A stretch of 64,000 nt of DNA from Mesostigma viride (Eukaryota > Streptophyta > Mesostigmatophyceae > Mesostigmatales > Mesostigmataceae): assembly GCA_009746045.1 (NCBI GenBank), contig RPFO01000076.1, positions 3,048,420 to 3,112,419 on the forward strand. Direction: 5' to 3'. The position numbers and the translations under genes were made by a program. The notes beneath the pieces were generated by a model. That model was not told the origin of the DNA, did not search any database, and saw nothing but the letters and a program-made list of their open reading frames with translations. Within the stretch, counting starts at the first letter, position 1; each line of letters starts with the position of its first letter. Positions 18,000 through 59,227 of this stretch are shown here, one piece after another.

Positions 18000-18024
18000 C
18001 GTACTATTGCTTCCAAGCGCTTTC

Positions 18025-19093: not shown

Positions 19094-19551
19094 AGTTAGA
19101 TGAGATGCTTAGGCTGACACACGGATTTCCGGCCTGCGCGCCGCGTATTGCCTACCGCGGCTGAGCGGGACACCTCAGTACAGTACGGCAGGGTGTACGG
19201 TACTGAGGTGTCATGTGGACCGATGTGCGGTTAGTGCCAGACTGTGCCTAGACTCTAGCTCGACCCGCCAGACCCGGGTTATCCGGTTCTGGACGGGCCG
19301 AGTGTAGTTGATGCTAGTGACGTGGTCGCATGGCATTGCAGTGTACAGTTGTCCACTGGTGAGGTGCTGCAGGTAGCACCGCCATAGGCATATAGGCGTA
19401 GCACTGGGGAGTGCCGCAGCACCCGAGTTTGCCCAGACGTTCCATTCTGAGCCCTCAGCTTCCATTGCTCTCTCATTGTATTATTGATAATACAATCATC
19501 ATTCGCTCTCAGCTTCAGCAGTTGTTCGTCGTCCCTAGTCTCCATCCAACT
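19094..19551 (+). repeat. 5' LTR of element B (458 bp)
   Basis: It matches 27152-27609. The ends are AGTTAG and CCAACT. A 22 bp palindrome with a 2 bp centre lies at 19475-19496 (ATTGTATTAT/ATAATACAAT arms). Confidence 0.9.
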
Positions 19552-19595
19552 TGGACTGAAAAGTTCGTTATTTTTTTTTCGACAAGCAAAAAAAT

Positions 19596-21156: not shown

Positions 21157-21207
21157 GTGGTTGCCTACCTGGCTGCATCATGATTTACTAACCCTACTGA
21201 CGATGAA

Positions 21208-22266
21208 GTGTCCCTCTCTCCCACCTTCCATGATTGGGAGGAGGCCCGCAGCAGGAGGCGGGAAGTGACACACACTCACACCCCCACCCAGCCCACCCCT
21301 ATGTTGTCTAACCCTCCTACACAGCCCATGTTTGCCCATCCTGCTCAGCTCACTCAAGTAGCACTTCCCTCTCAGCATGTCTCTCCTGTGAATGCTGCAG
21401 CAGCAACACCATCTTCTCCCTCTCCCCCTGCATCCCCCTCTAGGTTGCCCACTTACAATGAAAACCGTCCTGTGGATAGGATTAATGTCAGGGGGCTGCC
21501 TGAGGGGTATACTAGGGAGCAGGGGAATCATGCACTTCTCTCTCTTCAGCTGGCTAGGGAGGAACTGAATGTCAAGAATTGGTTTGGATCTCTCATGCAG
21601 GGGGATTTCTACCATCAGTCCTCTCTCAGATTCAGAATCTCATTCTTGTCTTCCAGCGTAGGTATCCCAAGTGGCAGGACACGCAGGCTAGGGCAGTTTG
21701 GGAGGCTTTCATGAAGGAGCTAACTGACCTCCTCTCCACCCCCTCATCTGTGGACATATATGGGGCATTCAGGTGGGTAGAGGAATACAGGGTCACATCA
21801 GTGGACTATGTGGCTGAGACAAAGAAATATGAGCTAGCCATCAAAGCACGTCCTGATGTCCAGCAGCTAGATCACAAGTTCTTGCTGCGTTCTTCCTTGA
21901 GAAACTCAAACTTGACAAAAACACCTACGCTATGCTTGCACAGGAATGGCAAAGTACTGGGAGGACATGAAGGAGGCATTGGATTATATCAAGCTGGCCT
22001 TGGCTCCCCTTAGCCAGGGGGCCATGGGCACCTCTGTAAAGAGGGTCAGGGGGGAAGAGAGGGAGGAGGAGGATAGGGAGAGGGAAGACAGGAGCAAGAG
22101 ACCTGTCACTATGGCAGAAGTCAAGTCCCTGCTGGGACAAATGTTTAAGGGCAAGGGCAAGGGCAAGGGCAAGGGCAAGGGCAAGGGCAGGGGCTGGGGC
22201 AAGGGCAAGGGTAAGGGGCAGTCTCCCTCCAAGGGGGGCAGCTCCAGCAACAACAACAACAACAGC

Positions 22267-22349
<83 letters not shown>

Positions 22350-22700
22350 GCAGGACAAGGAGGACAAGTCTTCTCAGCGGTGCACCCGCTGTGGCATGAA
22401 GTACCACCTGCGGCCCACCTGCCGCAAGAACGTGGACGAGCTGGGGCATTTGGACGTCCTGTGCCACAAGTGCCACGGGCCGCCCCACGGTGACCCCAAG
22501 GACTGCAAGCGGCCTCCTTACGGCAAGAAGTGTGAGTCTCCCTCTCATGCTGGCTTGAGTGTGCCTGCTTCACCTCTTTCATCTGCATGCCCCACTGTCA
22601 GAGCAGTGAGCAGTTCTGGAAAGGTGCTACAGCTGGTTTCAGAAGATTATGTCTCTAAACCAACCTTCACATCTATGGTTCCCAAGGTGTGCAGAGTGTC
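21208..22700 (+). pseudogene. gag: Element B gag, frameshifted
   Basis: The capsid-like region matches the gag of element C: NRPVDRINVRGLPEGYTREQ, then QLAREELNVKNWFG, then FQRRYPKWQDTQ. Frame changes fall near 21620 and 21900. A Lys-Gly repeat (22148-22215) and a run of about 33 Asn codons (22249-22349) precede two zinc-knuckle-like motifs: CTRCGMKYHLRPTC (about 22381) and CHKCHGPPHGDPKDC (about 22465). Gag forms the particle and packages RNA. The frame then changes again near 22695, where the pol frame takes over. Confidence 0.75.
22249..22349 (+). repeat. (AAC)n microsatellite coding poly-Asn
   Basis: About 33 nearly uninterrupted AAC codons in gag, absent from the related gag of element C. 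Replication slippage is the simplest source. Confidence 0.95.
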
Positions 22701-24736
22701 CCCCAGAGGATGCTCAGATCAGTTTTCAGGAGCTTGCTTTGCAGTTGCATTTCCTTTATGGGCATGAAGTGAGTGCAGAGGTGGTGGCAGCAGCAATAGG
22801 GGGGGCAGCACTCAGACGTGCATGCCAGGTGGTCAGATCCCACTGCCAGCATTGTCAGTTCAATGCACCCAAACCCCCTAAGTGGCATGTAGCTACCCCA
22901 CCTAAGTGCAAGGGCAGGGTGGTAGGAGATGTCTTTCATATCAAAGGACAATCTTACTTGGCACTTAAAGATGCATGGTCAAGGTACACAACCATTGAAC
23001 CATTACCTGGAATGGACAAGACACAGTTGCTCAGGGCTCTCTTGATTGCTCAGGCCAGGTACTACCCTGTGGAGGCATTGTTACTGGATCAGCAGTTCAC
23101 GTGTCTTGCCAATGAACCAGGGTGTGAGGCTATTGATCTGGCTGGGCTAGAAGATCATGAGAGGCAAGGCATTATTGAAAGGGCCATCAGGTCCATTAAA
23201 ACCCTTGTAGCCAAAGAAGATGGCAATCTGCTGGCTGACAGTGGGTCATATGCTGACAGAGCTCTGTGGTCCACCAGGTTGTGCCAAGTCCTCAACAGGA
23301 GGCCACTCATGAAAACCCCACAAGGGGTGATCATTACACCAGATGGATTGCATGCAGGCATTTATCCACCTGAGGTACTAGCCCTATACAACGCACAGCG
23401 AGCACAGACAGCTAGCAGGTTAGCTGTCAAGGATGCAAAGCATCCACGTCCCACCTTCAGAGAAGGGGATCAGGTCCTATTCTACAAGGAGTCGGGACTA
23501 GGCAAGGTGGGTACCTGGCATGGGCCAGCCACCATCCTAAAGTTTAACACCACTGGCAGGACAGTGTTAGTTAAACACAATGACACGGGAAAGATTCACA
23601 GGTGTTCACCTCACAGGATGAAATTGTATTTTCCAACTGTGTCAGACGTGGCAGAGGAGGAAGAGCTGTTGGCCGACAGCCCTGTACAGTTGCCTGGCAT
23701 CCCAGCGTTGCCCAGTGAGTGGTTGTTTGGAACACCCACTGGTGAGTGTGAGAGCCACACCCACTGTGACACCCAGGTCACCCTTGATGATTGCAGGCAG
23801 TCACTGCAGGCTTGGCCCCCTGCAGCAGAGGGTCACATTGGCAAAACAGGTGATCAGCAACCTATCACCTCTTCAAGTGTGAACATAGCTCAGCCACTAG
23901 CTGCACCTTCCAAACGCAGCCTAGCAGACGCTGTTCGCATTTTACAAGCAGCTCATAGAGCCAAAGCTCAAACTGCTGCAGGATCAGCTAAGGTGGGGAA
24001 GGTTGGGCAGAATGACAATAGCCCATTTATGGTTGCAGTGGACACACAAGCCCAGGTCAGCATTATCAGTGCCCTGGCTGTGCCCCATATGCCTTTGGAA
24101 CCTTCACCCTGGCACCATGTGGCTGATTTCTCAGGGCAGTCATCCCTCAAGGTATTAGGTCAGGTCATGTTGACTATACTCGGTATCCCTACTCCTTTTC
24201 AGGTCTTGGAAGGTTATAAAGGGAATGCTTTGTTGGGGGATCCTTTTCTCTGTTACCCTGGTGTCCTCATCTCCAGTGATAGACTATCCATCCAGGACAT
24301 GGGTGGTGTTGATCTGAATCATTTCAAAATTTCTCTTGAAAAACTTCTTAACACCAACATTGCTTCTGTAAAATTTGCTACACCCAAGTATGCCCCAGGG
24401 CAAGAACCCTGTGTGGCAGACTTGGTTCACAACCAAAAACTTCATCCCAACTCATTTGGATTGGGCAAGCATGATGTGGCTAAAATGTCTCCTCTTTCTT
24501 ATGAACAGATAGAGCAAGACTGTCGCACACACATAGGATTCCTAAAATGGGTGGAGGCCTTTAACAAGGCCAGGGAAGAATGGGTAGTGCCAGATCCTCT
24601 TAGTCCTTCTCATACTCCACCTGTCACACCTATTGACAAAAAGCCTGCAGGGTGCAAGCACTTGCGCCTGAAGTTTGTGTGTAAACATAAGCCAGCAGCA
24701 GATGGGTCAGTCATTTTCATGCTAGACCTTGTGTGA
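22649..24736 (+). pseudogene. pol: Element B pol part 1: integrase then protease-like domain
   Basis: Integrase zinc-binding H-x4-H (LHFLYGHE) and C-x2-C (SHCQHCQF) lie near 22750-22860. The catalytic Asp is in VVGDVFHIKG (about 22930), the second in LLLDQQFTC (about 23085) and the Glu in GIIERAIRSIK (about 23175), with 29 residues between the last two. A retropepsin-like domain follows at 24035-24290: VDTQAQVSII (Asp codon 24041), ADFSGQSSLKVLGQV and ALLGDPFLCYPGV. This is after integrase, not before it. The frame is lost at 24725-24736, before RT. Confidence 0.85.
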
Positions 24737-26087
24737 CAGAGTTCAAGGGCACCACTGATCTGACAGAGGCAGAGTTGTACACGCCAGGCATTCAGCAAAC
24801 ATCCTAAAAATCTTGCTGTCTGTCTTTGTGGGTCATCTCAATGATGGGGATGACTATGTATGTAAGGCTACAGACATTAAAAGGGCTTTCCTGAAAGGCT
24901 CACCTGAGATAGCACAACAAGTGTGGCATGGTCAGGTGTATGTAGTCTCCACTCCCAGAGTTTGGGCAAAACACATCCCTCAGCAGTACCTGAAAGCTAA
25001 CATAGGTGTTGAAGGGCTGCAATCAGCTCCTCGCATTTTCAGGATGTCAGCTCAGGCTGTGTTTGAAAAGCTAGGGGCTAGATATGATGACATAGACCCT
25101 TGCTTCTTTGTGGTCCCACACCCTCATGGCATTCTCACCTTTGTGTGGCATGGGGATGATCAGCTGATTGCTGGGCCAAGGCGTGCTGTGGATGATTTTA
25201 TTCAACAAGTGTCACAGCATTTTGAGATTGGCAAGCAAGTAGAGCTGGGCACCACTGCCATAAAATTTTGTGGCACAATGTTACAACTCCAGCAGCATCA
25301 AAACCAGTGGGTGTGTGCACTTTACTCTCCCAATGATTACATGCACAGCTGCTTGGAGGTTTTGCAAACAAAAATCAAACCTGGAGCCTGTCCTACCATT
25401 AGAGGCAAGCTGGGGTGGTTGTGCTCAACGTGTGCACCTCACCTGGCTGTGGTTAGCAGAGTTGATGATGATGTCTTGATGCAAGTAGGTCACAAAGCCA
25501 TCACCAAAACTCTCCAGGAAGGCCCTCCCCTTATCTTGCACTCCTTGGATCTCCACAAAACCATTCACATCCAAGCTATGATGGATAGTTCCATGGAGTC
25601 CAGGCAGATTACCAAGTTGCAGGCAAGGGAGTCAGGCTTGTATTTTGTGCAGAATGATGATGCACCCTTGTCTCTCATTTCATGGTACAGCCGGTTGCAT
25701 AGACGCAAGGCTGTCAGCAGCAATGCTGCTGAGTGCAGGGCAGTGGTGTCAGCAGTGCTTCATGCCAGGTACTTGAATCATGTGCTGGTTTGGTTGCAGA
25801 TGCAAGCAGGCAGCAATGCTGGGGTGGTGGCACACTTGCTCACTGACAGTCAGTCAGTCCTCAGTTTCCTTGCTAACCCCTATGCTGTGCACACTGATCT
25901 TGACTGGGTGGTCCTGAAACAGGAGTCCACCTACTGGGAGTCCACCCGTCACGTGGAGGACAAACACAACGCTGCTGATGCACTCACTAAAGTGCCTCAG
26001 CAGGCAGCTGACCAATACCAGCTGTTGTACCACTTGATGAACCCCTATGGCAAGCAGGCAACCCTGCCCCATAGGGGGGACGCCTAG
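24700..26087 (+). pseudogene. pol: Element B pol part 2: reverse transcriptase and RNase H
   Basis: After frame changes near 24725 and 24800, the frame open to 26087 carries the Copia-type RT: CKATDIKRAFLKG with the first catalytic Asp (about 24860), GVEGLQSAPRIF, and HGDD at 25149-25160 in place of YVDD. RNase H acidic positions are visible as MMDSSMESR (about 25580), NAAECRAVVS (about 25720), LTDSQSVLS (about 25840) and NAADALTKV (about 25970). Element C has the same motifs, so HGDD is a family trait rather than decay. Confidence 0.85.
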
Positions 26088-27151
26088 CAGGGTCCTGTTC
26101 ACCAGGGCCGCCTAGGTCACCCAGTACCCCTTGGGCAGGTCCAAGGGGTAGGTTGTGGCTTCCAGCAAGGGGGGTTGGTTGGAGTCTGTTTTTATACATC
26201 TGCGTGCCCTATGCCCAATAAAATCTGTTTTGATTTTTTCAACACCATGGAATTTCGTTATGCACACCTTCATAGGTGGGCATGGGATGTATCTCACATT
26301 TTTCTCCACTAGGGCGTATGCCTTGGTGGATTGGCCTTGAGCTCAGTGGCTCAGGTGCCCCCATTCAAGTGGAGGGTCAAAGCTCCCTTGACAGGTGGTT
26401 ACCCAGGACCCCAGTTCACTGTGGATATCCTGGGCCACCTGGCCTCACTGTTCAGTGGCAGTAAAGGCATGGGTGCTGTCATGTTGTCTAGTACAACGTG
26501 CTCAGCACAGGTGCAGGATGAAATATTCCTGTCACCTGTCACCAGGACTTCAGTCACCCATGTGCAGGGCAGGGGTGGCTGGTCCCACACGTTGTGCAGG
26601 TGCAACGTGGCCAGGTCCAGGATGTCATAGTCCTGTCACCTGTCACTAGGACTTCAGCCCCCTCTGTGCAGGGCAGGGGTGGCTGGTCCTCACATGTTGT
26701 GCAGGTACAACATGGACAGTGCAGGGTGCAATAAACCTGTCCACTGTCACTCCTCAGGTTGCAGGTAACCTGAGCTCAGTTGACCCAGCCTGGCTGGGTA
26801 TTTTTCTCTGAGTGGGCGATGATGATGGAACAACATGGAACCTCTTAAACGGTTACCTTGGCATTTTTTACAATGGCTCTCTTGGCTGGTGATGCACTCC
26901 CTGGATAGGCAGACAGGCATAGCTATCTCCCTTGTGAGCTCGCGAGGAGGAGGAACTCCCCGGGCATGTTGAGCTAAACGTGATGCCATCACAAGTATTG
27001 CACGAGTTCTGGGGCCCATCTTTTTCAGTCCAGATGTTGCAGTATGGGTGTCAGTTGCTCAGCACCTCAGTCAGCTTGGAGTCAGTCTCCTAGCTGGGCA
27101 GGGTCAGGCTTGAAGTCGCTAGCCTTCAACCTGAAAGGAAAACATAATGGG
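26088..27151 (+). other. Non-coding 3' region of element B with a 105 bp repeat
   Basis: An AATAAA lies at 26217-26222. About two and a half copies of a unit of roughly 105 bp (containing CCTGTCACCTGTCAC and GCAGGGCAGGGGTGGCTGGT) fill 26505-26735. The last bases before the LTR (CTGAAAGGAAAACATAATGGG) are purine-rich and shared with element C, so they probably include the polypurine primer. Confidence 0.6.
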
Positions 27152-27609
27152 AGTTAGATGAGATGCTTAGGCTGACACACGGATTTCCGGCCTGCGCGCC
27201 GCGTATTGCCTACCGCGGCTGAGCGGGACACCTCAGTACAGTACGGCAGGGTGTACGGTACTGAGGTGTCATGTGGACCGATGTGCGGTTAGTGCCAGAC
27301 TGTGCCTAGACTCTAGCTCGACCCGCCAGACCCGGGTTATCCGGTTCTGGACGGGCCGAGTGTAGTTGATGCTAGTGACGTGGTCGCACGACATTGCAGT
27401 GTACAGTTGTCCACTGGTGAGGTGCTGCAGGTAGCACCGCCATAGGCATATAGGCGTAGCACTGGGGAGTGCCGCAGCACCCGAGTTTGCCCAGACGTTC
27501 CATTCTGAGCCCTCAGCTTCCATTGCTCTCTCATTGTATTATTGATAATACAATCATCATTCGCTCTCAGCTTCAGCAGTTGTTCGTCGTCCCTAGTCTC
27601 CATCCAACT
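27152..27609 (+). repeat. 3' LTR of element B (458 bp)
   Basis: Matches the 5' LTR with two differences; flanked on the right by GCAGC (27610-27614). Confidence 0.9.
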
Positions 27610-27614
27610 GCAGC

Positions 27615-27682
27615 GTCCAGACCGTGAGGAGGGGCAGGCGAGTGCAAGCCAGGAGGCGGCCTCGTCTGGAGTAAGTGCGTGA
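27615..27682 (+). CDS. Element A ORF1, 3' part
   Basis: Directly after element B's right duplication, the ORF1 frame resumes for 22 codons (RPDREEGQASASQEAASSGV) and ends at TGA 27680-27682. The phase is correct if B and one GCAGC are removed. Confidence 0.6.
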
Positions 27683-27736
27683 GCCTGAGTGGGTTCCAGC
27701 AGCCATATCTGCGTGTGTTGTCTGCAGTATTTTATA

Positions 27737-29085
27737 ATGCTTCGTAACACGCGCGGGACGGCAGCGGGAGCGGGGCGGGAGCGGGGGATGGCGGTGGTGA
27801 GGCAAGGGCAGATACAGGAGGCCCCGCCAGCGTCGTGCCAGAGGGACAGGCAATCCCAACGGCAGAGGGCGCCAATGGCAGGAGGGCATCCATCCGGAAG
27901 AGGAAGGAGGTGGCACAAGGAGAGGAGCGTGCAGGGTGGCCAACCGACGGCGTGGTGCTGACGGGGGAGGGCCAGAATGATGCTGAACGTCAAGCACCTG
28001 GTAAGAGACCATGTGTGCCTGAGTCTGGTGTTCCTGCAGCTAGTGTTCCTGCGCCATTAGCACCTGTAGGAGCTGCAGTCATTGGCAGTGACCCTCGTGC
28101 TTTGCCTGGAACTAGACCTCATATGAGTGCTGTGGCTGTGATGAATGGCCAGAAGCCTCTCAAGCCTCCTGTGGGACAGGAAAAGCTAGACAAGTGGTTG
28201 GAGGATATGGAGCTAGTCTCTTGCTCTGTAGATCCCACTGTCAACCTTGTGCAGGTATTCCACACATCCACGACTAATAGGGATTCCAGTGAGCGTGTGA
28301 GGGACAAGGCTAGGCAAGCTGTCAAGGACAAGCTGACTTGGTCTCAGTTCCTAGAGGGCCTACGTCAGGAGTTCTCTGATAAGGTACTCAACCTCACTAA
28401 TCACTATAAGCTCAGCTATGATACCTTTGAGATCAAGGGCACGGTAGCTGAGGAGCTGCAGCGGCTCACACGCATCAGGGAGAAGGGAGCCAAGCATGGC
28501 TTCAATCTGACTGACAGAGCAGTGGCAGATTACTTCCTGGATCGCATGGGGCTGAGTGTGGATGGGAGAAATGCAGCTAGGATGTTTGCTGATCAGACAG
28601 ATGGGACGTGGCCAGCCTTGCAAAAGGTTATTTTCAATATCCGTCCATCTGACAATGCTGCTTGCAAGGCAATCCAGGTGACTGGTGCCCCTTCAGCCTC
28701 CGCTCATCAGGTCCATGGTGACGCCCCTGGGCAGGGTGCTCAGGGAGAAACCAGACCTAGTAGGCGTCAGAGGGCTAACAGGCGCAGGCAGAATGGTAAC
28801 CAGGGTGGCAAGGGCCAGCAGCAGGGATCCAAAGGCAAGGGTCAGCAGCAGGCTGGTGGTCACCAGGGTGGTCAGCAGAACAAGGGTGGCCAAGGGCAAG
28901 GCAAGAGCCAGGGCCAGGGCACCCAGGCCAGTCAGAGCAGCCAGAACCAGGGTGGCCTGAAGAAGGCTGCTGCTGGGAAGGATGACAAGTGCTTTGGATG
29001 TGGCAGGACGGGTCATTGGCGACGTGACTGCCCAGACCAGGCCAAGTCTGCTGGAGCAGGCTCTGGCCAGGTGGGTAAGCCATGA
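27737..29085 (+). CDS. gag: Element A gag with zinc knuckle
   Basis: ATG 27737 (MLRNTRGTAAGAGRERG) starts in one frame; the main frame takes over near 27830, so one indel separates them. The capsid-like middle (about 28140-28640) has VGQEKLDKWLEDMELV, WSQFLEGLRQEF and ITREKGAKHGF-like helices. A Gln/Gly/Lys-rich linker (28700-28970) leads to CFGCGRTGHWRRDC (28990-29031), a classical C-x2-C-x4-H-x4-C knuckle. Gag ends at TGA 29083-29085. A second TGA (29088-29090) stands in the pol frame, so how pol would be reached is unclear. Confidence 0.75.
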
Positions 29086-29090
29086 CTTGA

Positions 29091-30310
29091 GTGTTGTCCC
29101 CTGTAAATAGTCAATCACCCCTAGTGGGACGAACAGTTGTACATAGTAATGGGGGTGTCCCTCTTGTGCAGCAGCAAGGGGTTGGGAATGATGAGGTGCT
29201 TCCACTCAATGATTGCAATAACGCTGCTGCAGCAGTGGAATTCCCTGTGCCTGTGGCAGGTGCAGGGTCTCCAGTTGTTGGGGTTGACTCTGGGAGTCAA
29301 GCCGCCAGACTGGAAGGACCTGCAGCTTCTGTGGGAACCGGGGCTGGCTCTGGGAGCCGAGCTACCTTGGAGGAGGTCCCTGGAGCAAGAGAACAGCAGG
29401 TGGGTCGTGCTATCCCAAGCACACAGTCTTTGTCACGTTCCTCTCTGTGCAGCCAGGCTGACAGGGGGTTGAGCTATGCTCAGGCTGGAAACACTCTACA
29501 CCATATCTTTGGCCACTCTAAGCAGGCAGAGATGTTTGCTTGGAAGATTGGCAAGGAGCCTTTGCTAGAGGCCTGCAGTGCAGCTGCTCAGAATTGTGTC
29601 TGTCAGGAGAATGCTGTTCGCCTCCCACAGTCCCATGCCAGAGAACCTGCTAGAGAGCGGGGGGATATCCAGGTGGACATCCAACACATCAGGGGCATGT
29701 ATCTGTTGGTGGGGGTGGATAGGTTTAGCAGATATAGGTTGCTGACCATTCTTCCTGGAATGCAGGAGCATCAGCTGTTGATGGGTCTCCAGTCTTTGTT
29801 GCCAGGCTTTGGGGTGTACACCAAGGTGCAAGCTGACTTGCAGTTTGACTGCTTGATCAAGCTGGCTGACCAGCTTCCTTGTAAGTTGGTAGTGGTCCCT
29901 AGGGAATGCCATGGGCAGCAGGGAGCTGTAGAGAGATCTATACGTGAAGTAAAAACAGTGGTGCTAGCAGCTAGGAGTGTGCCTGTTGTGGCATCAGCTC
30001 TAGAGAAAGCAGCTTGGTGTAAGGGGATTGAGGAGCAGCTTAACCACAGGGTAACCTATTACTATGATGGTGTGGCAGTCTCTCCCCTGGCATTGCAGTT
30101 TGGTATGCTATCACAGGACGTGGTGGCAGCCTGCCTGAAGAAGGCAGACAGGGTGTTTTCCAGATTGAGGCGTAAGGACAAGGGTTGGAAAATGCTGAGG
30201 CCCCAGGTGGGACTGAGGGTCAGGATGTGGAAGGAACCGTCATTACCAGGCAAGCGTGGCAAGTGGCAAGATGGGCAGGTAACCCATGTTGAGAAGCTAA
30301 CCATTCTTGT
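29091..30310 (+). CDS. pol: Element A pol part 1: integrase
   Basis: After a variable Val/Ala/Gly-rich lead, the integrase zinc segment shows H-x4-H in LHHIFGHS (about 29498) and C-x-C in NCVCQ. Catalytic residues are IQVDIQHIRG (about 29675), VQADLQFDCL (about 29830) and GAVERSIREVK (about 29925); the last two are 31 residues apart. No convincing protease precedes it, apart from a lone VDSGSQ (about 29283) without a matching second half. The frame closes near 30310, and the downstream domains continue in another frame. Confidence 0.75.
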
Positions 30311-32677
30311 CTGGTGGCTTTGGAGAGTAATCCCAAGCACGTGTACAGGCTATCCTGGGCTCACGTCAAGGAGAGAAGGCCAACTGCAATCTGGCCTGAA
30401 GACGGCCCTGATCCTCCCTTGGAGGGAGATGAGCAGGATGAGAGCCAGGCAGCAGATGCTAACCCACCATGCTTGGATTATGGTCTGTCCTGGATGGATG
30501 AGGGTGAGCAGGAGTCTGCTGAGACGTCTGTCACAAGGCCAGAGGTGGCCAGGGCTGCACCACAGTCCAGGGGGCTGCTTATGGCGGACATCATTCGAGC
30601 TCTGCAGAACAGCAAGCGTGATCCCAAGGTATCTAAGCTCACGGGATGGGGGTCATGTGGGGCACCAGCACTAGAAGTGGATACCAACTCACAGGTGTCC
30701 ATTCTAAGGGTAGAGGATGCTGCAGGCTTGCAGTGGTCATCCCCTAGCTGCCTAGCTGTGTCTGATTTCTCTGGGAATGTGTCCATGAAGATCTTGGGAG
30801 AAGTGAGTGTGCCTATCCTGGGGGTGCCCACCACGTTCAGTGTGGTTGAAGGGTATCAGGGGCCTGCCATTCTAGGTCAGAACTTCTTGTGCTTACCAGG
30901 GGTGAGGATATCCTCTGAGGAGCTAGCATTAGAAGGGCAGGGCCGCCTTCCCTTGCAGAGATATCGCTACTCCCAGGGTCTTAGTGTGGCTGTAAGGGCT
31001 GTGAGGGGTCTAGAGGCAGAGGGTCCTGATACAAAGGAGCCCATTGCTGGGGACCTGCTGATCCTCCCTACTACGTTTGACCCACGTGAGTTGGGTGTGC
31101 AGAGGTACCAGATCCCAGGAACGAGTCCTGTACCTTGGCGCAAGCTAGTGGAGATGATGCAAAGCCCCAAGATGGCTAAGGCATGGACTCTTGGCTTTGT
31201 TGCTTCTGGGCATGAGTGGATAGTTGCCAACTGTGCAGAGCCTGTGGATGTCCTCCCTGAGGATCACCAGCTGCTCAGATTGATGTTTGTCCTCAAGCTC
31301 AAGGAGGTAGATGGCGTGCAGGTGCCACATGTTAGACCAGTTGTGACTGAGTACCATGGCACTGGACAGTTAGCAGATGAGGAGCTTTACACACCAGGGA
31401 TGCTGCATGATACATGGAGGATTTTGTTGTGCATTTACTTGTCTTTTCTGCAGAAGGGGATACCCTATAGCTCTGTGTTGGTAGATTTCAAGAGGGCTTT
31501 TCTTAAGGGTGATCAGCAGGAAGCACAGGATACTTGGCGCACAATACCCCCTTTCTTTGTTAAGGTGCCTGCAGTGTGGAGGGCAGAGCTGAAGACGAGG
31601 TATTTGAGGATTCTCAAAGGCGTGGAAGGCCTTAGATCGAGTCCCATCATCTGGAGGAAGAGCTTGGAGAAGTACCTCAGGTCTGTCTGTGGTCTCTCAG
31701 TCTCTCCAGTTGATCCTTGTCTGTTTCAGGGTAGCTATGAGGGGCTGCCAGCGTTTGCCTCCCTGCATGGTGATGATCTGCATCTCCTGGGCCATCCCAC
31801 TTGGCAAGAGTTGACTCTGGCCAGGATCCAGAAACGGTTTGAACTGGGTAAGATCCAGTACATGGTTGAGAATGAGCCCATGGTGTTTTGTGGAATGCAG
31901 GCGACCTTGGTCCATCAGCAGGGTACATGGTCCATCCAGCTGGAGGGTGGTAAGGATTATCCTCAGCAGATCATAGATGCCTTGCAGGAGCCCATCACCC
32001 AGGCCAGATGTGCAACAATACGAGGTATGTTGGCATGGCTGGCCAGCATTTGTGCTCCTGACCTGTTGGTACTGAGTCGGTTGACCGATTCCCAACTGGT
32101 TGAGGTGGGTGCTGAGAGAGTGGTAGAGGCTGTTCGCATGTCTCCCCCTCTCATGCTGGGTCCTTTGGATTTGTACAGGCCTTTTGACATGATGCTCTAT
32201 GTGGACAGTTCTATGGATAGTAGGAAGGTCACAGAGGTCAGGGGCCGTGCAGCAGCATTAATATCCCTGGTGCAGGAACAGTCCTCTCTGGTCTGCTGGT
32301 ACAGTCGGTTGCAAAACAGGGTAACTCCCAGCAGTGACATTGCTGAGTGCAGGGCAATCTGTGAAGGGCTTCATACTGCTCTTTACTTGAGGGAGCTATT
32401 TTACCAGCTATGTCAAGTGGCTTCCTGTCGGTTGCAGATGCACACACTGGTAAGAACTGACAGCATGGGCATGGTGCAGTTTGTGCACAGGCAGCTGGCC
32501 AGGAGCAGGGACCTTGATTATTTGTTGCTCAAGGAAATGTCTTGCTTAGCTAACATTGAACATGTGGCTGGCGTGGACAACCCTGCAGATGCTCTCACCA
32601 AGCTGGAGGAGAAGGCTGAGCTGCAATACCCTTTGCTTCGTGGGCTCATGGCCTCCAAGGGGGGAGGGCCAGAGTAG
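30311..32677 (+). CDS. pol: Element A pol part 2: protease-like domain, reverse transcriptase, RNase H
   Basis: The frame runs 780 codons without a stop. First comes a retropepsin-like domain (about 30665-30950): EVDTNSQVSIL with Asp codon 30680, VSDFSGNVSMKILGEV and AILGQNFLCLPGV. RT follows, with VLVDFKRAFLKG (about 31483), GVEGLRSSPIIW and HGDD at 31766-31777. RNase H has LYVDSSMDSRK (about 32200), DIAECRAICE (about 32338), RTDSMGMVQF (about 32455) and NPADALTKL (about 32580). The stop is at 32675-32677. Joined to part 1 across one indel, the order is IN-PR-RT-RH. Confidence 0.85.
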   Translation: MVALESNPKHVYRLSWAHVKERRPTAIWPEDGPDPPLEGDEQDESQAADANPPCLDYGLSWMDEGEQESAETSVTRPEVARAAPQSRGLLMADIIRALQNSKRDPKVSKLTGWGSCGAPALEVDTNSQVSILRVEDAAGLQWSSPSCLAVSDFSGNVSMKILGEVSVPILGVPTTFSVVEGYQGPAILGQNFLCLPGVRISSEELALEGQGRLPLQRYRYSQGLSVAVRAVRGLEAEGPDTKEPIAGDLLILPTTFDPRELGVQRYQIPGTSPVPWRKLVEMMQSPKMAKAWTLGFVASGHEWIVANCAEPVDVLPEDHQLLRLMFVLKLKEVDGVQVPHVRPVVTEYHGTGQLADEELYTPGMLHDTWRILLCIYLSFLQKGIPYSSVLVDFKRAFLKGDQQEAQDTWRTIPPFFVKVPAVWRAELKTRYLRILKGVEGLRSSPIIWRKSLEKYLRSVCGLSVSPVDPCLFQGSYEGLPAFASLHGDDLHLLGHPTWQELTLARIQKRFELGKIQYMVENEPMVFCGMQATLVHQQGTWSIQLEGGKDYPQQIIDALQEPITQARCATIRGMLAWLASICAPDLLVLSRLTDSQLVEVGAERVVEAVRMSPPLMLGPLDLYRPFDMMLYVDSSMDSRKVTEVRGRAAALISLVQEQSSLVCWYSRLQNRVTPSSDIAECRAICEGLHTALYLRELFYQLCQVASCRLQMHTLVRTDSMGMVQFVHRQLARSRDLDYLLLKEMSCLANIEHVAGVDNPADALTKLEEKAELQYPLLRGLMASKGGGPE

Positions 32678-33614
32678 ACCAAACAGCCTTGCTCTAGGTG
32701 GGAGGCATCCCAGTGGGCTGGGCAGCCACGTGGTGGCTGACAGCAGGTCCTTCAGAGTTCAGACACACTCTGCTGGACAGGGGTCAGGGTGGAGTCACTC
32801 CCCTGGCTGAGAATTTCGCCTGGCTCTGTCATGGAGCTGCAGAAGAGTCTTAAGGACTTTGTAATGGGCCTTGGGTCTTCATGGAATGGACCCTGCAAGG
32901 GCAGCCCAAGTGTTGGCTCTAACAGGTTGCTGTACATTTGTATATATTCTCTGTAACCAACCTGTTGCATGCTAATAAAATCCCTGGTTGTGTGACCATG
33001 TTGGACGTGGTTGCCAGGGGCCTCACTATGGGTTATACTTCTTTATAATAAAACATAATCTTGTTATTGTCATGTCTTGTTGTTTGTGATGCTCAGTTCC
33101 AGGAGCTGATCCAAACCTGGAGGATATGGGGTGGGGTTCGATTCCCCAGCTGACCTCAGCCTGGCATGTATGAATCCTGAGTTTATCCCTCAGTGAGGAC
33201 ATGGGCTCCCCATGTGTTGGCTAACATTTGTCAGGGCTCTCTCAGTCTTTGGAAGGATTTAAAAGATAAAGGAGGCTCCGTGGCGGGCGCCATATGAACG
33301 GGCGCCTGTGATAACTGGATGACCAGGAACTCACAATAGTACGTTCATGGACTCCTCTATCCAAACTCCTCTGACTAAGTGAAGACCTAACTTTAATCTA
33401 CACCAGGTTCCCAAAGAAAGGGTTGGGATGTCATGTGGGTCAGAGGGCAACCTTTGAACCAATGAGCAGGCCTAGCTAATATTTGGAGGCACCTCAGGTT
33501 CCAAAAGAAAAGGCAGGTCTGGTCTCTGGGAGGGATCAGATGTCTGAAGGCTTGTGGGGACAGTGGCTGATAGGTTCTCAGGCTGGTCCAAGCTCCAAAA
33601 CAAGAAAGGGTTGG
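32678..33614 (+). other. Non-coding 3' region of element A
   Basis: No credible ORF. AATAAA occurs at 32974-32979 and again near 33047. Two similar purine-rich strings (CCAAAGAAAGGGTTGGGA near 33410 and ACAAGAAAGGGTTGG immediately before the LTR) could be polypurine primers. Confidence 0.6.
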
Positions 33615-34268
33615 AGTTAGCATATTGGGGCACCAATGTGCTAGATGGATGCAGGTTGAGGAGACCTTTCCAACGCCGTGTCAACCGCCTAGAACAGACA
33701 AGGGACTAGAAAGTTATCAAGTCCCGAAGTACTGCCGACCGGTGGGCGAGGGCGGTGCACTCTCAGGGCATAGTGGACAGGACACGTGGCAGGCCGTGCC
33801 TGCACAGGCTTAGCCTGAACTCTCACGTGACTGGGACACAGTGTACTGAGGGCTCAACGGTACTGTGGCTAGTAGAAGCCAGTAACCAGCCAGCAGGTCT
33901 GCAAGGATGTAAGTCCTTGCAGGACTGTGGCAGGTCCTGTGCTGTCCTAGACACAGGATAGCCAGAGATTCCTGTATGCTGCCTGCAACAAGGATGCAGG
34001 GCAGCGATACGAGGCTCTGGCAATGTAGCGTTGCCCAGCGTTGCTCATGACCGAGGAACAAGGATGGAACGAGGTTGCATATAGCTCGAGGCTCAACGAG
34101 GCAACGAGCGTCTTCACACACGAACCTTGGTCGTCACGACGACTGGCGAGCCTATCGAGGGTCGTAGGCCTGGTGTGAGGATAAAGGTTGCTAGCCAGCA
34201 GCCTAGGGTCATTCCAGCCGGCAAGGACCAGGAGCTCACAAGCTCTGCTGACGAGTTGCTGCGCAAAT
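33615..34268 (+). repeat. 3' LTR of element A (654 bp)
   Basis: Same length and ends as the 5' LTR, about eight mismatches; followed by the GTGGA duplication at 34269-34273. Confidence 0.9.
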
Positions 34269-35074: not shown

Positions 35075-35284
35075 TACTTTGGTGTTTCTCTTGAAGTTGT
35101 AACCTTCCGGGTAGTACAACGTTGATCAGATGTCTGTCATCCGAGAAGATTCATAGAGTTGCGGAAAACTTACGGTGATACAGAGAGAGACACATCCTTA
35201 TGTGACTGTCTTGCTCTTTAACACTGGAAGTCAGCCGTAACCGTTGTCTCTACTAGGCAGACGATCGCGACTTCATGTGGTAGT

Positions 35285-38500: not shown

Positions 38501-38650
38501 AATGCCCACATTACCTTGCATGGTAGTGCCACCTGGATGGTTGCGGGGAGTGATGTTGTTGCTGGGGCCCTGCCAAGCTTGGGCACATCAGTTGGCTGAT
38601 TGGTGATTGCTTTCAGTCTGCTCTCAAGCTGCCTTGTATGCAACTCTGTC
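35519..38650 (+). other. Non-coding interior of element D, left of element C
   Basis: Three kilobases without a recognisable domain. It contains local duplications: a GCGGGGGAGTGGA-containing segment repeated at 36441-36485 and 36577-36620, with AACAACGGCATTTG/AACAACAGCATTTA nearby; about five GCACTCATGGTGGCGACT-like units at 37640-37760; and GGGCCCTGCCAAGCT repeated near 38393 and 38567. Multiple small duplications suggest spacer DNA rather than decayed pol. Confidence 0.5.
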
Positions 38651-38983
38651 AGTTAGCTGAGATACCTCGAGGCTGACTTGTGGCCGGAGCCACACAGGGG
38701 AACATACAATGTGACCGGAGTTATTCTGGCGGAGACAGAATAACGGTGCCGAGCGCCGGTTGTGGCGCGACGCACACACGTGTACGCAAGTTACGTAGCT
38801 AGCAACTAGTCTAGTGGACGTTGTGCGTAGTAACGTTGCTCCAGGTCTAGAAGCCTCTAGAACCTGGACACGTGGCGGACAAGTGAGCGTAGTCCAGTTG
38901 TCCTAGGGATCTCGTGTGAGTGATGTGTCCACGACATATAATGTGTGCCCACATATGGAGTGAATAATGATCATCTATATATC
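38651..38983 (+). repeat. 5' LTR of element C, truncated
   Basis: Matches the 3' LTR with one mismatch up to AATAATGA (38970), then lacks about 70 bp present at 45032-45104, then shares CATCTATATATC (38972-38983) before diverging. The normal end AACT is missing. Confidence 0.8.
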
Positions 38984-39895
38984 AGGCAGGTCTTCTTCGC
39001 CCTCTCCCTCTTCACCCTCTCATGATTGGCAAGTCTATAATGAACATAGGCCAATTGACAGGATTATGGTGAGGGGGCTGCCAGAGGGGTACACTAGGCA
39101 GCAGGGTGCTCAGCTTCTTCTCTCTCTCAAGCTCGCTAGGGAGGAGCTGAATATCAAGAACTGGTTTGGGGCACTCATGCAGGGTGATTTCTTCCACCAA
39201 TCCAATCCCTCCATCCAGCACTTGGTATCCATATATCAGCAAAGGTATCCCAGGTGGCAGGATACACAGGGTAGGGAGCCATGGGAGAATTTTCTGCGTG
39301 ATCTGCATGACCTGCTGTCTGCTCCCACCACTGTTGACATGTACTCTGCGTTTAACTGGGTAAAAACCTATAAGGTAGAAACTCAGAACTATGTAGCAGA
39401 GATCAAGAAGTGGGAACTTGCAGTGAAGGCCCACCCCGAGGTTAGCAAGCTAGATCACAAGTGGCTTGTTCATTCCCTGCTCGAGAAGCTTAACCTTGAT
39501 CGTAACACCTTTGCCATGATCACCACAGGCTTGGCCACCCATTGGGAGTCGATGAAAGAGGCTCTCGATTATGTTAAGCTAGCCCTGGGTCCACTGTGTC
39601 AGGACTCAGCCCCTCCCCCCTCTACCTCTTCCCCCCCTGCTGTCAAGCGGGCCCGGGGGGAGGAATCAGATGAGGAGGGTAAGGCCAGGAAGGCCAAGGA
39701 CAAGCGTCCTGTGACGCTAGGGGAGGTGAAGACTCTTATGAGTCAGTTTGTTAAGAGCCTCAAGGGCAAGGGCAAGGGCAAGGGCAAGGGCAAGGGCAAG
39801 GGGCAGGGGAAGGGGAAGGGTAGGTCATCCCCCCAGGGGGGAACGCTAACAAGTCTTCTGGGGCTGGGTCCTCCACCCCCAAGAAGGATGTGAAA
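38984..39895 (+). CDS. gag: Element C gag, N-terminally truncated
   Basis: The frame starts within the damaged LTR (ATG 38970) and enters SSPSPSSPSHDWQVYNEHRP at once, so the normal start and leader are lost. It shares RGLPEGYTRQQGAQ, KLAREELNIKNWFG and YQQRYPRWQDTQG with element B's gag. A Lys-Gly repeat (39763-39800) precedes a C7/G6 run (about 39826-39841), where the frame changes to that of the zinc knuckle and pol. The poly-Asn tract of B is absent. Confidence 0.7.
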
Positions 39896-42800
39896 TGTGT
39901 GCGTTGTGGGCGTCGTGGACACAGCAAGGACAAGTGCCACAAACACAAGGAGCACCTGGCGCACCTGGAGGTGCTCTGCCACAAGTGCCTGGGACCGCCT
40001 CACGGGGACCCCGCCAAGTGCACCAAGGAGCCGTGGCAGCCTCCTAAATGTAAGTCCTCACACCCTCACACGTGTCATGATGAGTCGTGTCCCCTACACC
40101 ACCCAATATCCAGCTCCACTGCCCAGGCAGGGACACAGGATGGGAGGATGTTGACAGGATGTCAAGTTAACTCTGTTACCTCTCACTCTCCACCTTCATG
40201 CTCAGCTGTCAAGGCTGTAAGCAAGGTTGGCAAAGTGTTGAAGTATTACACAGAAACCTCTGACAGTGAACCCAGGTTCACCTCCTTGATACCCAAGGTG
40301 TCCAGGGTCATGACCCAAGCTCTTAGTAACATCAGTTATGAGGAGCTGGCATTGCAACTGCACTTACTGTATGGTCATGAGACATGTGCAGAGGTGGTAG
40401 CAGCTGCATTGGGAGGTACGGCACTCAGGAAGGCATGTCAGCTGATCAGAAAACACTGTCAGCACTGCCAAATGTATGCACCTAAACCACCCAAGTGGCA
40501 TGTAGCTACACCACCTAAGTGCAAGGGCAGAGTGGTCGGGGATGTGTTCCATATTAAGGGACAGCCCTATCTGGCTTTAAAGGACGCATGGTCCAGGTAC
40601 ACAGCAATAGAACCTCTCCCTGGTATGGACAAGTCTCAGTTGCATAGAGCTATATTAATAGCACAAGCCAGGTACTACCCAGTAGAAGCACTGCTGTTAG
40701 ATCAGCAATTTAGTTGCCTTGCTGGGGCAGAGGGCTGTGAAGCTATAGACCTGGCTGGGCTAGAAGATCATGAGAGACAAGGTATCATTGAGAGGGCAAT
40801 TAGGTCTATCAAAACCTTGGTAGCCAAAGAAGGTGAGAACCTGTTAGCTGACAGTGGGTCATACGCTGATAGGGCACTGTGGGCTACTAAGATATGCCAG
40901 ATACTCAATAGACGACCACTCCTGCAGACACCCTATGGTATTATCACACCAGATGGGTTACAGGCTGGGATATACCCACCTGAGGTACTAGCTGTGTACA
41001 ATGCACAGCGTGCCCACGCTGCCAGCAGATTGGCAGCCAAGGATGCCAAGCATCCACGCCCCTCCTTCAAGGAAGGGGACACAGTTCTCTTCTATAAGGA
41101 GTCAGGGCTAGGGAAGGTTGGGACATGGTTAGGCCCAGCCACTATCCTTAAGTTTTCCAGCACAGGCAAGACTGTGCATGTGAAACACAATGACACTGGG
41201 CATGTGCACAAGTGCTCACCTCACAGGATTAAATTGTATTACACTCCACTGTCAGACGTGGCAGAGGAGGAAGAGCTGATGGTCGACAGCTCAGTACAGT
41301 TGCCTGGTATATCTGGAGTACCCAGTGAGTGGTTGTTTGGAACACACACTGGTGAGTGTGATAGCCACAACACATGTGCACCCCAGGTCACCCTCAGTGA
41401 GCCTAGCCAGCCACAGCAGGTTAGACCACCTGTCAACGAGGGCACTAACCAAGAAGGTGGTCAGCAAGACAGCACACCTTCAGCGGTACCAGCTCAACCC
41501 ATACCTACCGTGTCCAAACATGGGCTAGCAGAAGCGGTCCGCATACTGCAAGCAGCGCATAGAGCCAAAGCTCACACTGCTGCAGGGTCAGCCAAAGTGA
41601 GTAGGGCAGGTCACAGCGACAACAATCCAGCTCTAGTCGCGGTTGACACCCAAGCTCAGGTTAGCATCATCAGTGCATTGGCTGTACCACACCTAGAGTT
41701 AGAGCCTTCCCCTTGGCAACGGGTGGCTGATTTCTCTGGGCAGGCTAGCTTGACTGTTAAAGGTCAGGTTACCTTAAACATTCTTGGTATCCCCACACCT
41801 TTTCAGGTACTGGAAGGATACACAGGAAATGCTTTGTTGGGTGATCCATTTATTTCTTACCCAGGTGTCACCATCTCTTGTGATAGGCTTGAGGTACAGG
41901 GCCTGGGTGGGGTGTCACTTGATCATTTTCAGGTACCACTCCAGACTTTGGTTGACACACAGCCAGCCACTGTCAAATTTGTTGCACCAAAGTATGCACC
42001 TGGGCACGAGCCACGTGTGGCAGATTTGGTGCACAGTCAGAAACTGCACCCCAAAGCATTTGGATTGGGAAAGTATGATGTTGCAAAAATGTCTCCCCTC
42101 TCCTATGAGCAGATTGTCCAGGACTGTCAAACTCAGGAAGGTTTCACTAAGTGGGTTGAAGCTTTTAGAAAGGCTATGGATGAATGGGTGGTTCCAGATC
42201 CACGTAGTCCCACCCACACACCTCCAGTCACTCCCTTAGAGCGTAAGCCCAACGGGAGCAAGCACCTAAGACTTAAGTTCGTGTGCAAGCACAAGCAAGC
42301 AGCAGATGGCTCTGTCATTTTCCATGCTAGGCCTTGTGTGACTGAGTTTAAGGGATCCACTGATTTGACAGAGGCAGACCTGTATACACCTGGCATTCAG
42401 CAAACTTCTCTTAAAATTTTGCTGTCTGTTTTTCTAGGGCACATCAATCAAGGTGATGATTATGTGTGCAAAGCCACTGACATTAAACGTGCATTTCTGA
42501 AAGGCTCACCTGAAATAGCTGAGCAAGTTTGGCATGGGAAGGTGTATGTGGTCAACACACCTCAGGTGTGGTCTAAGGATATCCCACAACCATTTCTGAA
42601 AGCCAACATAGGAGTGGAAGGTCTGCAATCTGCTCCTAGAATTTTCAGAATGTCAGCTCAAGCTGTGTTTGAGAAGCTAGGTGCTCGGTATGATGACATA
42701 GACCCTTGCTTCTTTGTTGTCCCTCACCCTCATGGCATGATCATGTTTGTGTGGCATGGGGATGATCAGCTTATTGCTGGGCCTAGGCAGGCTGTGGATG

Positions 42801-43516
42801 ATTTTATTGCCAACGTGTCTAAGTCTTTTGAGATTGGCAAGCAGCTAGAGCTGGGCACCATTGCTATTAAGTTCTGTGGCACAATGTTGCAGCTTCAGAA
42901 GCAAGCAGATCAGTGGGTCTGTGCAATGTACTCTCCATCAGATTACATGCACAGTTGTAAGGAGGTGCTGCAGACTAAAATCAAACCTTGTGACTGTCCC
43001 ACCATTAGGGGCAAGCTGGGGTGGTTGTGTTCTACTTGTGCACCACACTTGGCAGTAGTCAGCAGGGTTGATGATGCAGTTCTTATGCAGGTAGGCCACA
43101 AGGCTATCAACAAGCTCCTGCAGGCTGGTCCACCCCTTATCTTGCATTCCCTGGAACTCTTTAAGCCCATTCACATTCAGGCTATAATGGACAGTTCCAT
43201 GGAATCACGGCAGATTACTCAACTGCAGGCTAGGGAGGCTGGCTTATTTTTTGTACAAAATGCTGACAACCCATGTCACTCATCTCATGGTATAGCAGGC
43301 TACATAGGCGTAAAGCTGTTAGTAGCAATGCTGCTGAGTGCAGGGCAGTTGTGTCAGCTGTGCTACATGCCAGGTATCTCAATCATGTCCTGGTTTGGTT
43401 ACAGAAGCAAGCAGGCAGTCAGGCTGGGGTGGTGGCTCACTTGCACACCGACAGTCAATCTCTCCTCAGTTTCCTTGACAACCCTTATGCTGTGCATACT
43501 GATTTGGACTGGGTGA
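39890..43516 (+). CDS. pol: Element C pol: zinc knuckles, integrase, protease-like domain, RT, start of RNase H
   Basis: A single frame of 1,208 codons. CVRCGRRGHSKDKC (39896-39937) and CHKCLGPPHGDPAKC follow one another. Integrase: LHLLYGHE and KHCQHCQ zinc ligands, catalytic Asp at 40541 (VGDVFHIKG), Asp at 40700 (LLLDQQF), Glu at 40790 (GIIERAIR), D-x29-E. Retropepsin-like domain: VDTQAQVSII with Asp 41645, ADFSGQASLTVKGQV, ALLGDPFISYPGV (about 41835). RT: CKATDIKRAFLKG (about 42465), GVEGLQSAPRIF, HGDD at 42755-42766. RNase H begins with IMDSSMESR (about 43185), and the frame breaks near 43285. This is the best preserved copy of the family here. Confidence 0.9.
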   Translation: MKCVRCGRRGHSKDKCHKHKEHLAHLEVLCHKCLGPPHGDPAKCTKEPWQPPKCKSSHPHTCHDESCPLHHPISSSTAQAGTQDGRMLTGCQVNSVTSHSPPSCSAVKAVSKVGKVLKYYTETSDSEPRFTSLIPKVSRVMTQALSNISYEELALQLHLLYGHETCAEVVAAALGGTALRKACQLIRKHCQHCQMYAPKPPKWHVATPPKCKGRVVGDVFHIKGQPYLALKDAWSRYTAIEPLPGMDKSQLHRAILIAQARYYPVEALLLDQQFSCLAGAEGCEAIDLAGLEDHERQGIIERAIRSIKTLVAKEGENLLADSGSYADRALWATKICQILNRRPLLQTPYGIITPDGLQAGIYPPEVLAVYNAQRAHAASRLAAKDAKHPRPSFKEGDTVLFYKESGLGKVGTWLGPATILKFSSTGKTVHVKHNDTGHVHKCSPHRIKLYYTPLSDVAEEEELMVDSSVQLPGISGVPSEWLFGTHTGECDSHNTCAPQVTLSEPSQPQQVRPPVNEGTNQEGGQQDSTPSAVPAQPIPTVSKHGLAEAVRILQAAHRAKAHTAAGSAKVSRAGHSDNNPALVAVDTQAQVSIISALAVPHLELEPSPWQRVADFSGQASLTVKGQVTLNILGIPTPFQVLEGYTGNALLGDPFISYPGVTISCDRLEVQGLGGVSLDHFQVPLQTLVDTQPATVKFVAPKYAPGHEPRVADLVHSQKLHPKAFGLGKYDVAKMSPLSYEQIVQDCQTQEGFTKWVEAFRKAMDEWVVPDPRSPTHTPPVTPLERKPNGSKHLRLKFVCKHKQAADGSVIFHARPCVTEFKGSTDLTEADLYTPGIQQTSLKILLSVFLGHINQGDDYVCKATDIKRAFLKGSPEIAEQVWHGKVYVVNTPQVWSKDIPQPFLKANIGVEGLQSAPRIFRMSAQAVFEKLGARYDDIDPCFFVVPHPHGMIMFVWHGDDQLIAGPRQAVDDFIANVSKSFEIGKQLELGTIAIKFCGTMLQLQKQADQWVCAMYSPSDYMHSCKEVLQTKIKPCDCPTIRGKLGWLCSTCAPHLAVVSRVDDAVLMQVGHKAINKLLQAGPPLILHSLELFKPIHIQAIMDSSMESRQITQLQAREAGLFFVQNADNPCHSSHGIAGYIGVKLLVAMLLSAGQLCQLCYMPGISIMSWFGYRSKQAVRLGWWLTCTPTVNLSSVSLTTLMLCILIWTG

Positions 43517-43692
43517 TCCTGAAACAGGAGTGCACCTACTGGGAGTCTACCAATCATGTGCCGGACAAGGCCAACGCCGCGGATGCGTTGACCAAGGTGC
43601 CCCAGCTAGCACCTGAGCAGTACCAACTGCTCTATCACATGATGAACCCCTACGGCAAGCAGGCCAGCCTGCCCCCGCCGGTAGACACCTAG
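43273..43692 (+). CDS. pol: Element C pol, RNase H remainder after a frameshift
   Basis: Continues RNase H from SLISWYSRLHRRKAVS, with acidic positions in NAAECRAVVS (about 43325), HTDSQSLLSF (about 43448) and NAADALTKV (about 43573), to the stop at 43690-43692. One base appears to be missing from the CATGTCACTCATCTCATGG stretch near 43280 relative to element B. Confidence 0.85.
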   Translation: MSLISWYSRLHRRKAVSSNAAECRAVVSAVLHARYLNHVLVWLQKQAGSQAGVVAHLHTDSQSLLSFLDNPYAVHTDLDWVILKQECTYWESTNHVPDKANAADALTKVPQLAPEQYQLLYHMMNPYGKQASLPPPVDT

Positions 43693-44714
43693 TCCACCCC
43701 TCCCCAGGGAGGGTGGCTAGTCTCCCCACCCCTACTATGGGGCAACCCCTGTCAGGGGGTAGGGGTACCCAGACCCGGGCCCAGGCCACGGGGTGTCTTA
43801 TCATCAGCACTAGCTCCTGGGGAGGAGCTGAACCTGTATGCCTTGTAAGCCCTGTTTTATGGTGAATAAATGGAGTCTCTTTGACCTCGTCTCTCTCATG
43901 GAATTTCGTTAGCTCATCTCTTGGGAGGTGAGCTGTCAATCCTTCACAAGTGTGTCATTGTGTCAGTCATGGTGACAGTACTTGTACATGGCATTGTTAT
44001 GTGGCTGGGTCATGTTCATGGTTACCTTGTACATGTGCATGTGCATGTGCATGTAACGTGTGACAGTCTTAGTCTTGTGACTGTGCCTGTTGTGTCTTAT
44101 GCTGCCATCTGGTCCCAGGACCTGTGGTAGGGTGATGGGCAGTCCACCCATTCGCCATGTGCAAATCAAGTGGAGAACCAGTTCCCACTTGTCAGTTGCC
44201 TGTGCTTACCACCATGTGGCACTCACAGGTATCTGGCTGCTCTGGCCCAGGTCAGCAGTGGCGAAACATCAGGTCCTAAGCACCTGGGGAAGACCTCTGG
44301 TTTCACTAGAGTCATCCCATTGGTTTTTGGGAAGTGGATGTTGCATGGGGTTCCATCCACAAGTGGCAATCAAGCCCCCCTTTTTCTACCATCTGCAGTG
44401 ACAGATGCCAGGGAAATGACGACAATTCGCTCCTTCAAAGATGGAAACTGGGCACTCCTTATATGCTGTGACATGTGACTTGCATGACGTCCTGTGTGAC
44501 GAATGGCCGCAGTACCTCATTTATGTTTTCCCCACTATTGAGGGGGAGGAACCCCCGTAGTGCTTGGCAGGGTTAAATCAGCAGTCAGCATCAGTATAGT
44601 CCGTTTCTGGGGCCCTTCTCTAATCCAGTTGTGACTGTATGGGCTCTGGTTGCCTTGCAACGGTTGGTAGGTCAGACTTGGAGCATGTTCCAATCTGAAA
44701 GAAAACATAATGGG
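43693..44714 (+). other. Non-coding 3' region of element C
   Basis: AATAAA at 43865-43870, a GTGCAT hexamer run at 44035-44053, and a purine-rich string (CTGAAAGAAAACATAATGGG) immediately before the LTR that is nearly identical to that of element B. No ORF of note. Confidence 0.6.
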
Positions 44715-45122
44715 AGTTAGCTGAGATACCTCGAGGCTGACTTGTGGCCGGAGCCACACAGGGGAACATACAATGTGACCGGAGTTATTCTGGGGGAGAC
44801 AGAATAACGGTGCCGAGCGCCGGTTGTGGCGCGACGCACACACGTGTACGCAAGTTACGTAGCTAGCAACTAGTCTAGTGGACGTTGTGCGTAGTAACGT
44901 TGCTCCAGGTCTAGAAGCCTCTAGAACCTGGACACGTGGCGGACAAGTGAGCGTAGTCCAGTTGTCCTAGGGATCTCGTGTGAGTGATGTGTCCACGACA
45001 TATAATGTGTGCCCACATATGGAGTGAATAATGACAAGGAACGCCCGATCCCTGGCGTTGCTGCAGCCATCATTCTCACACTGAGTCCCCAACGTCTCCG
45101 ACGTACATCTATATATCTAACT
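44715..45122 (+). repeat. 3' LTR of element C (408 bp)
   Basis: AGTTAGCTGAG...ATCTAACT, with inverted AGTTAG/CTAACT ends. The right boundary is fixed by the CTGTC duplication at 45123-45127. Confidence 0.85.
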
Positions 45123-45127
45123 CTGTC

Positions 45128-59219: not shown

Positions 59220-59227
59220 GACTTCAT

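Follow-up and report, generated by a model that had tools for sequence, protein, structure and literature searches.

The order of the domains encoded by pol serves to define retrotransposon superfamilies and to argue the divergence of Copia, Gypsy, and retroviruses. Goodwin and Poulter reportedly described in 2002 a Gypsy lineage with a Copia-like integrase position. The canonical Copia order is gag, protease (PR), integrase (IN), reverse transcriptase (RT), and RNase H (RH), written GAG-PROT-INT-RT-RH in a plant reference survey (PMC6317226), and both the diatom CoDi elements (PMC2806351) and crustacean Copia elements (PMC3587641) likewise carry PR, IN, RT, and RH in that succession. We analyzed a window of 64,000 nt from Mesostigma viride contig RPFO01000076.1, positions within which serve as coordinates throughout, and find in it three long terminal repeat (LTR) elements, A, B, and C, that are arranged differently. 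In all three, gag with its zinc knuckle is followed by IN, a retropepsin-like domain, a Copia-type RT, and RNase H. None of the three has the Copia order PR-IN-RT-RH, and none has the Ty3/Gypsy order PR-RT-RH-IN with an RT of the RVT_1 family. We put at about 0.8 the probability that these elements represent a Copia-related LTR retrotransposon lineage with pol arranged as IN-PR-RT-RH behind gag.

Domain order and reading frames

A preliminary description of this DNA had assigned to element C a single frame of 1,208 codons with knuckle, IN, PR-like domain, and RT, and this frame is indeed present as an open reading frame (ORF) at 39890–43516. From the knuckle it continues through IN (HHCC site, DDE core, and presumed C-terminal domain), a linker, and the PR-like domain to RT and the beginning of RNase H; IN, the PR-like domain, and RT share it without a stop. 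Most of gag lies upstream in another frame, and the last ∼85–90 codons of the ORF (after ∼43250) do not keep the frame that RNase H has in A. The residues that had been named for IN, the PR-like domain, and RT are all in place, as the features of C show.

38651..45122, plus strand: element C, nested in element D; 5′ LTR from 38651 to ∼38970 (shortened), 3′ LTR 44715–45122
38967..39893, plus strand: gag remnant frame with a Lys/Gly-rich C-terminus; frame differs from the IN-RT frame
39896..39937, plus strand: zinc knuckle CX2CX4HX4C, read from the sequence, in frame with IN
40361..40792, plus strand: IN zinc site and DDE core; HX4HX26CX2C at 40361–40468, D40541, D40700, E40790
41120..41239, plus strand: presumed IN C-terminal domain, GTWLGP...CSPHRIKLY, by inspection; no Pfam match
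41615..41926, plus strand: retropepsin-like domain; VDTQAQVSII (Asp 41645), VADFSG (flap position), NALLGDPF
42170..43270, plus strand: RT and start of RNase H; HGDD 42755 (Asp 42761, 42764), RNase H Asp 43190

The gag frame of C is 56% identical to the gag/knuckle frame of A over 108 aa and has no Pfam match to a gag family, and Pfam support for the knuckle of C is negligible (zf-CCHC_4, E 2.1). Relative to A, element C lacks ∼1.9 kb of 5′ sequence. In the gag of A, at 22215–22380, a Lys-Gly repeat precedes a long Asn (trinucleotide) run; C shares the repeat but not the run. The same succession of domains is found in the other two elements.

19094..27609, plus strand: element A, nested in B; LTRs 19094–19551 and 27152–27609
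22748..23179, plus strand: IN of A; HHCC 22748, 22763, 22844, 22853; core D22928, D23087, E23177
24011..24322, plus strand: retropepsin-like domain of A; Asp 24041 (DTQ)
24759..26087, plus strand: RT and RNase H of A; HGDD 25149
17346..34268, plus strand: element B, interrupted by A; LTRs 17346–17999 and 33615–34268
28990..29031, plus strand: zinc knuckle of B at the end of gag; zf-CCHC E 2.6e-5
29499..29933, plus strand: IN of B; HHCC with C-terminal pair CX1C; core D29676, D29835, E29931
30653..30962, plus strand: retropepsin-like domain of B; Asp 30680 (DTN), AILGQNF; 43.9% identical to C over 98 aa
31241..32677, plus strand: RT and RNase H of B; HGDD 31766

No copy is intact. In A, IN and the PR-like domain occupy one frame and RT-RH another, with breaks between gag and IN and near 24735. 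In B, three frames hold gag, IN, and PR-RT-RH, the first break falling between gag and IN and the second within the C-terminal domain of IN. C is broken ahead of the knuckle and within RNase H, and its two LTRs differ in length, the 5′ one being the shorter. Gag and pol would once have formed one frame. Since B is distant from C (32–44% identity by domain) and was inserted separately, the order is a trait of the lineage and not of a single rearranged copy, which upholds the earlier proposal; it is shared by two divergent sub-lineages, A/C and B.

Self-comparison resolves the window into a eukaryotic-type nest of LTR elements, with A inside B and C inside D. The LTRs of A are 99.6% identical, with ends AGTTAG...CCAACT and the 5-bp target duplication GCAGC. 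Those of B (17342–17999 and 33612–34268) are 98.6% identical, end in AGTTAG...GCAAAT, and are bounded by GTGGA; those of C (38651–38970 and 44715–45034) are 99.7% identical across their common 320 bp and end in AGTTAG...CTAACT, with CTGTC at 38646–38650 and 45123–45127. Exact 5-bp duplications therefore bound all three elements, which fits the Copia expectation of 4–6 bp. The LTR ends are not TG...CA, being AG...CT in A and C and AG...AT in B, and the AGTTAG start is common to all. TG...CA ends are typical of most LTR retrotransposons (PMC12440569); in Copia they are usual, not strict, being found in 23 of 26 diatom families, with three exceptions (PMC2806351). The common order, the AGTTAG start, and a short D-E spacing in IN together indicate a single lineage built on the plan gag-IN-PR-RT-RH.

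Reverse transcriptase and integrase

The preliminary description had proposed checking the pol frames against profiles. RVT_2 matches all three elements, in C above the Pfam cut-off (E 5.4e-10) and in A (E 1.7e-4) and B (E 4.8e-4 to 1.2e-3) below the curated one, and RVT_1 matches none of them. Judged by these profiles, the RT of A, B, and C is of the Copia type. The integrase profile rve gives matches below cut-off in A (E 0.01–0.027) and B (E 0.028–0.043), both beginning at the same profile column, and no match in C. The IN assignment consequently rests on these rve matches in A and B, the HHCC and DDE residues, and the homology of C to A and B; over IN, C is 84% identical to A. The region that we take to be RNase H is identified in all three elements from its position and motifs; Pfam gives no clear match (for B, RVT_3 at E 0.25).

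The second Asp and the Glu of the IN core are separated by 29 residues in A and C and by 31 in B, both shorter than the DD35E spacing described for Copia elements (PMC3587641). An hhalign test of IN ranked the IN frame of the window's Gypsy element first and second of 493 unrelated segments. We do not count this as support, because the 23 aligned columns miss a core-on-core match: in C they end at the first Asp, and in the Gypsy frame they reach no further than the beginning of the zinc domain.

The retropepsin-like domain

The segment between IN and RT is probably a retropepsin-like domain in all three elements, an assignment that is good but indirect and that draws on sequence and on structure models. 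A failure of profile searches to place it in the retropepsin fold had been named at the outset as a refutation, and the outcome is mixed, though largely favorable. Profiles group A and C with retropepsins only below cut-off and do not place B; structure matches, the register of the motifs, and conservation are consistent with a retropepsin-like domain. Before trimming, PF13975 matches over nearly the full profile (positions 7–89 of 92), in C at E 0.012 and in A at E 0.084. With the domain trimmed out, PF13975 matches C at E 0.039 and A at E 0.22, and PF12382 matches C at E 0.13; these are the only retropepsin families matched in Pfam, and none of seven shuffled controls gave any Pfam match up to E 10. 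PF13975 is matched by the Gypsy element of the window as well, and both families also, or mainly, cover Gypsy-type proteases. The catalytic Asp of the domain occupies the profile column of the DSG Asp in this Ty3-type element, and in hhalign the known protease of that element, aligned Asp on Asp, ranks 6th among 790 unrelated segments. Foldseek searches with two independent models of low confidence returned retropepsins as 50 of 50 and 48 of 50 among the PDB matches listed, and with VIA aspartic proteases made up 46 of the 50 matches listed. The hydrophobic-hydrophobic-Gly motif, which a retropepsin is expected to carry ∼60–70 residues after its Asp, is present as ALLG in A and C and AILG in B, with the Gly 65 residues after the Asp in C.

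Conservation of the domain is marked. Between B and C, no other part of pol is as well conserved as the PR-like domain (43.9% identity over 98 aa, against 34.9% over 312 aa for RT and 31.6% over 272 aa for IN), and for the linkers that flank it in C the best hits in B are not significant (E 2.4 and 0.95). The A–C comparison gives dN/dS values of 0.098 (bootstrap 0.048–0.187) for the PR-like domain, 0.042 for IN, 0.081 for RT, and 0.433 (bootstrap 0.255–0.714) for the linker upstream of the domain, a contrast that is softer than it appears because dS is near saturation and lower in the linker. The B–C comparison is the stronger evidence of constraint.

Several observations weigh against this assignment. 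The PF13975 matches of C and A are sub-threshold, B has no retropepsin profile match in Pfam, and the confidence of both structure models is low. The active site reads D-T-Q in A and C and D-T-N in B, not D-T/S-G. Finally, dN between A and C is 0.170 in the PR-like domain, 0.233 in the upstream linker, and 0.067 in the downstream linker, which weakens the contrast in constraint.

A protease elsewhere in the elements was also sought. In the frames scanned, which were those of gag and others of 80 codons or more short of the 3′ ends in B and C, Pfam detects no aspartic protease outside the IN–RT interval, and no D[TS]G occurs between gag and IN in A and C. A scan of the plus-strand frames of the elements for D[TS][GA] gave three candidates. 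Two, both reading LADSGSY, belong to the conserved IN of A and C and were rejected as the later retropepsin motifs are absent. The third, a lone VDSG in B (∼29286), does lie between gag and IN; it is followed by low-complexity sequence and then IN, without later motifs, and was likewise rejected. Pfam has no match in B at 29091–29700. This agrees with the earlier statement that neither B nor C has a DTG/DSG protease between gag and IN.

Searches for relatives returned 7, 35, and 72 pattern matches in viral contigs and 50 and 72 in prokaryotic genome contigs, none of them confirmed, and the nature of these collections gives the result little weight; the window's Gypsy element had no match in a separate viral scan. 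A PDB sequence search with the PR-like alignments returned no matches.

Function, origin, and alternative explanations

If the domain folds and acts as a retropepsin, a gag-pol polyprotein would be made and packed into particles, and the domain, tied to IN and RT via variable linkers, would dimerize and cut it. RT-RH would then copy the RNA, and IN would insert the cDNA, with its AG...CT or AG...AT ends, to leave 5-bp target duplications. Because the active-site Gly is replaced by Gln or Asn, protease activity is only putative; some foamy-virus proteases also depart from D-S/T-G. The order could have arisen by relocation of the ancestral PR, by relocation of IN, or by loss and replacement of PR. 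That only Gypsy-type retropepsin models match is a weak hint at replacement. A possible but doubtful scenario is that the protease between gag and IN was lost from this lineage and that another retropepsin, closer to those of Gypsy elements or of cells, was acquired between IN and RT, where it works with D-T-Q or D-T-N beside a short-spaced IN that processes non-CA ends.

The alternative that survives best, though we consider it unlikely, accepts the order and takes the domain for a non-catalytic retropepsin relic, kept for folding, dimerization, or RT function, with the element processed by another protease or left uncut. The substituted D-T-Q and D-T-N and the broken state of every copy are in keeping with a relic, but the Asp, Thr, flap, and LLG/ILG positions are kept in both sub-lineages, in the domain of pol best conserved between B and C. 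Less likely still, the domain could be some other small β domain, in elements that lack a protease or have a highly diverged one elsewhere; the missing above-threshold profile match and the low model confidence leave room for this, whereas several weak lines, independent of one another, agree on retropepsins and place the Asp in register, and the other frames scanned yielded no aspartic protease. Finally, it is highly improbable that the order is an artifact of nested insertions, misassembly, or one rearranged copy, since within this nest of elements each of the three has its own LTR pair and 5-bp duplication, the sub-lineages are only 32–44% identical by domain, and C runs uninterrupted from IN to RT.

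Other features of the window

Element D (34343–48798), in which C is nested, has 714-bp LTRs (34343–35056 and 48085–48798) that are 100% identical, with ends TGTAAC...GTTACA and the duplication CGCAT. The sequence TTGGTATCGGAG after its 5′ LTR resembles an initiator-tRNA primer site. No pol was found in D, and its longest own ORF (46913–47725) has no Pfam match; it looks like a young non-autonomous element that carries C. Pieces of Ty3/Gypsy chromovirus type lie at 1143–6179 (gag with knuckle, PR-RT-RH, and IN with chromodomain). At 58149–62454, a direct-repeat pair of ∼330 bp, 98% identical and ∼4 kb apart, is possibly an LTR element without clear coding capacity. A long array of ∼30-bp units at 59249–60561 and 63731–63984 leaves minus-strand frames open (ORFs 59224–60483 and 59372–60607), and ORF 59224–60483 has no Pfam match. 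Dispersed repeats pair 10929–11198 with 51839–52106 (86%) and 13087–13499 with 53181–53590 (80%); both pairs are ∼40 kb apart, and the equal distance suggests two older copies of one element. Rfam gave no matches in the window.

Comparison with known systems

No report of an IN-PR-RT order was found in the literature searched, subscription journals and Repbase entries lying outside its reach. The plant reference survey removed elements with an unexpected domain order in every case, as likely mispredictions (PMC6317226), so absence from curated sets is no evidence of absence in nature, and curated surveys may miss lineages like this one. If inherited, a third order would demonstrate that Copia-type elements can move or exchange their PR, or their IN, and can have PR located behind IN, and the DTQ/DTN site, if active, would widen the range of accepted retropepsin active sites.

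Like Ty1/Copia (Pseudoviridae), the three elements have an RVT_2-type RT, IN upstream of RT-RH, a CCHC gag knuckle, and 5-bp duplications, along with, in A and C, the HX4H...CX2C zinc site of IN; unlike Ty1/Copia, they place PR after IN, read DTQ or DTN, space the last two DDE residues by 29 or 31 rather than 35, and lack TG...CA ends. GalEa-like Copia elements share the Copia-type pol and a similar HX4H zinc site, with features of their own in PR-INT-RT/RH, DTGC/DSGA, HX30C, and DD35E (PMC3587641). With Ty3/Gypsy (Metaviridae), the elements share a PR directly upstream of RT-RH; they differ in that RT is RVT_2, not RVT_1, and that IN comes before PR and not after RH. The Gmr1-like Gypsy lineage, with its Copia-like INT position, is a precedent for a relocated pol domain (PMC2774666). 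That lineage arrives at the Copia order, whereas here a Copia-type element has a third order.
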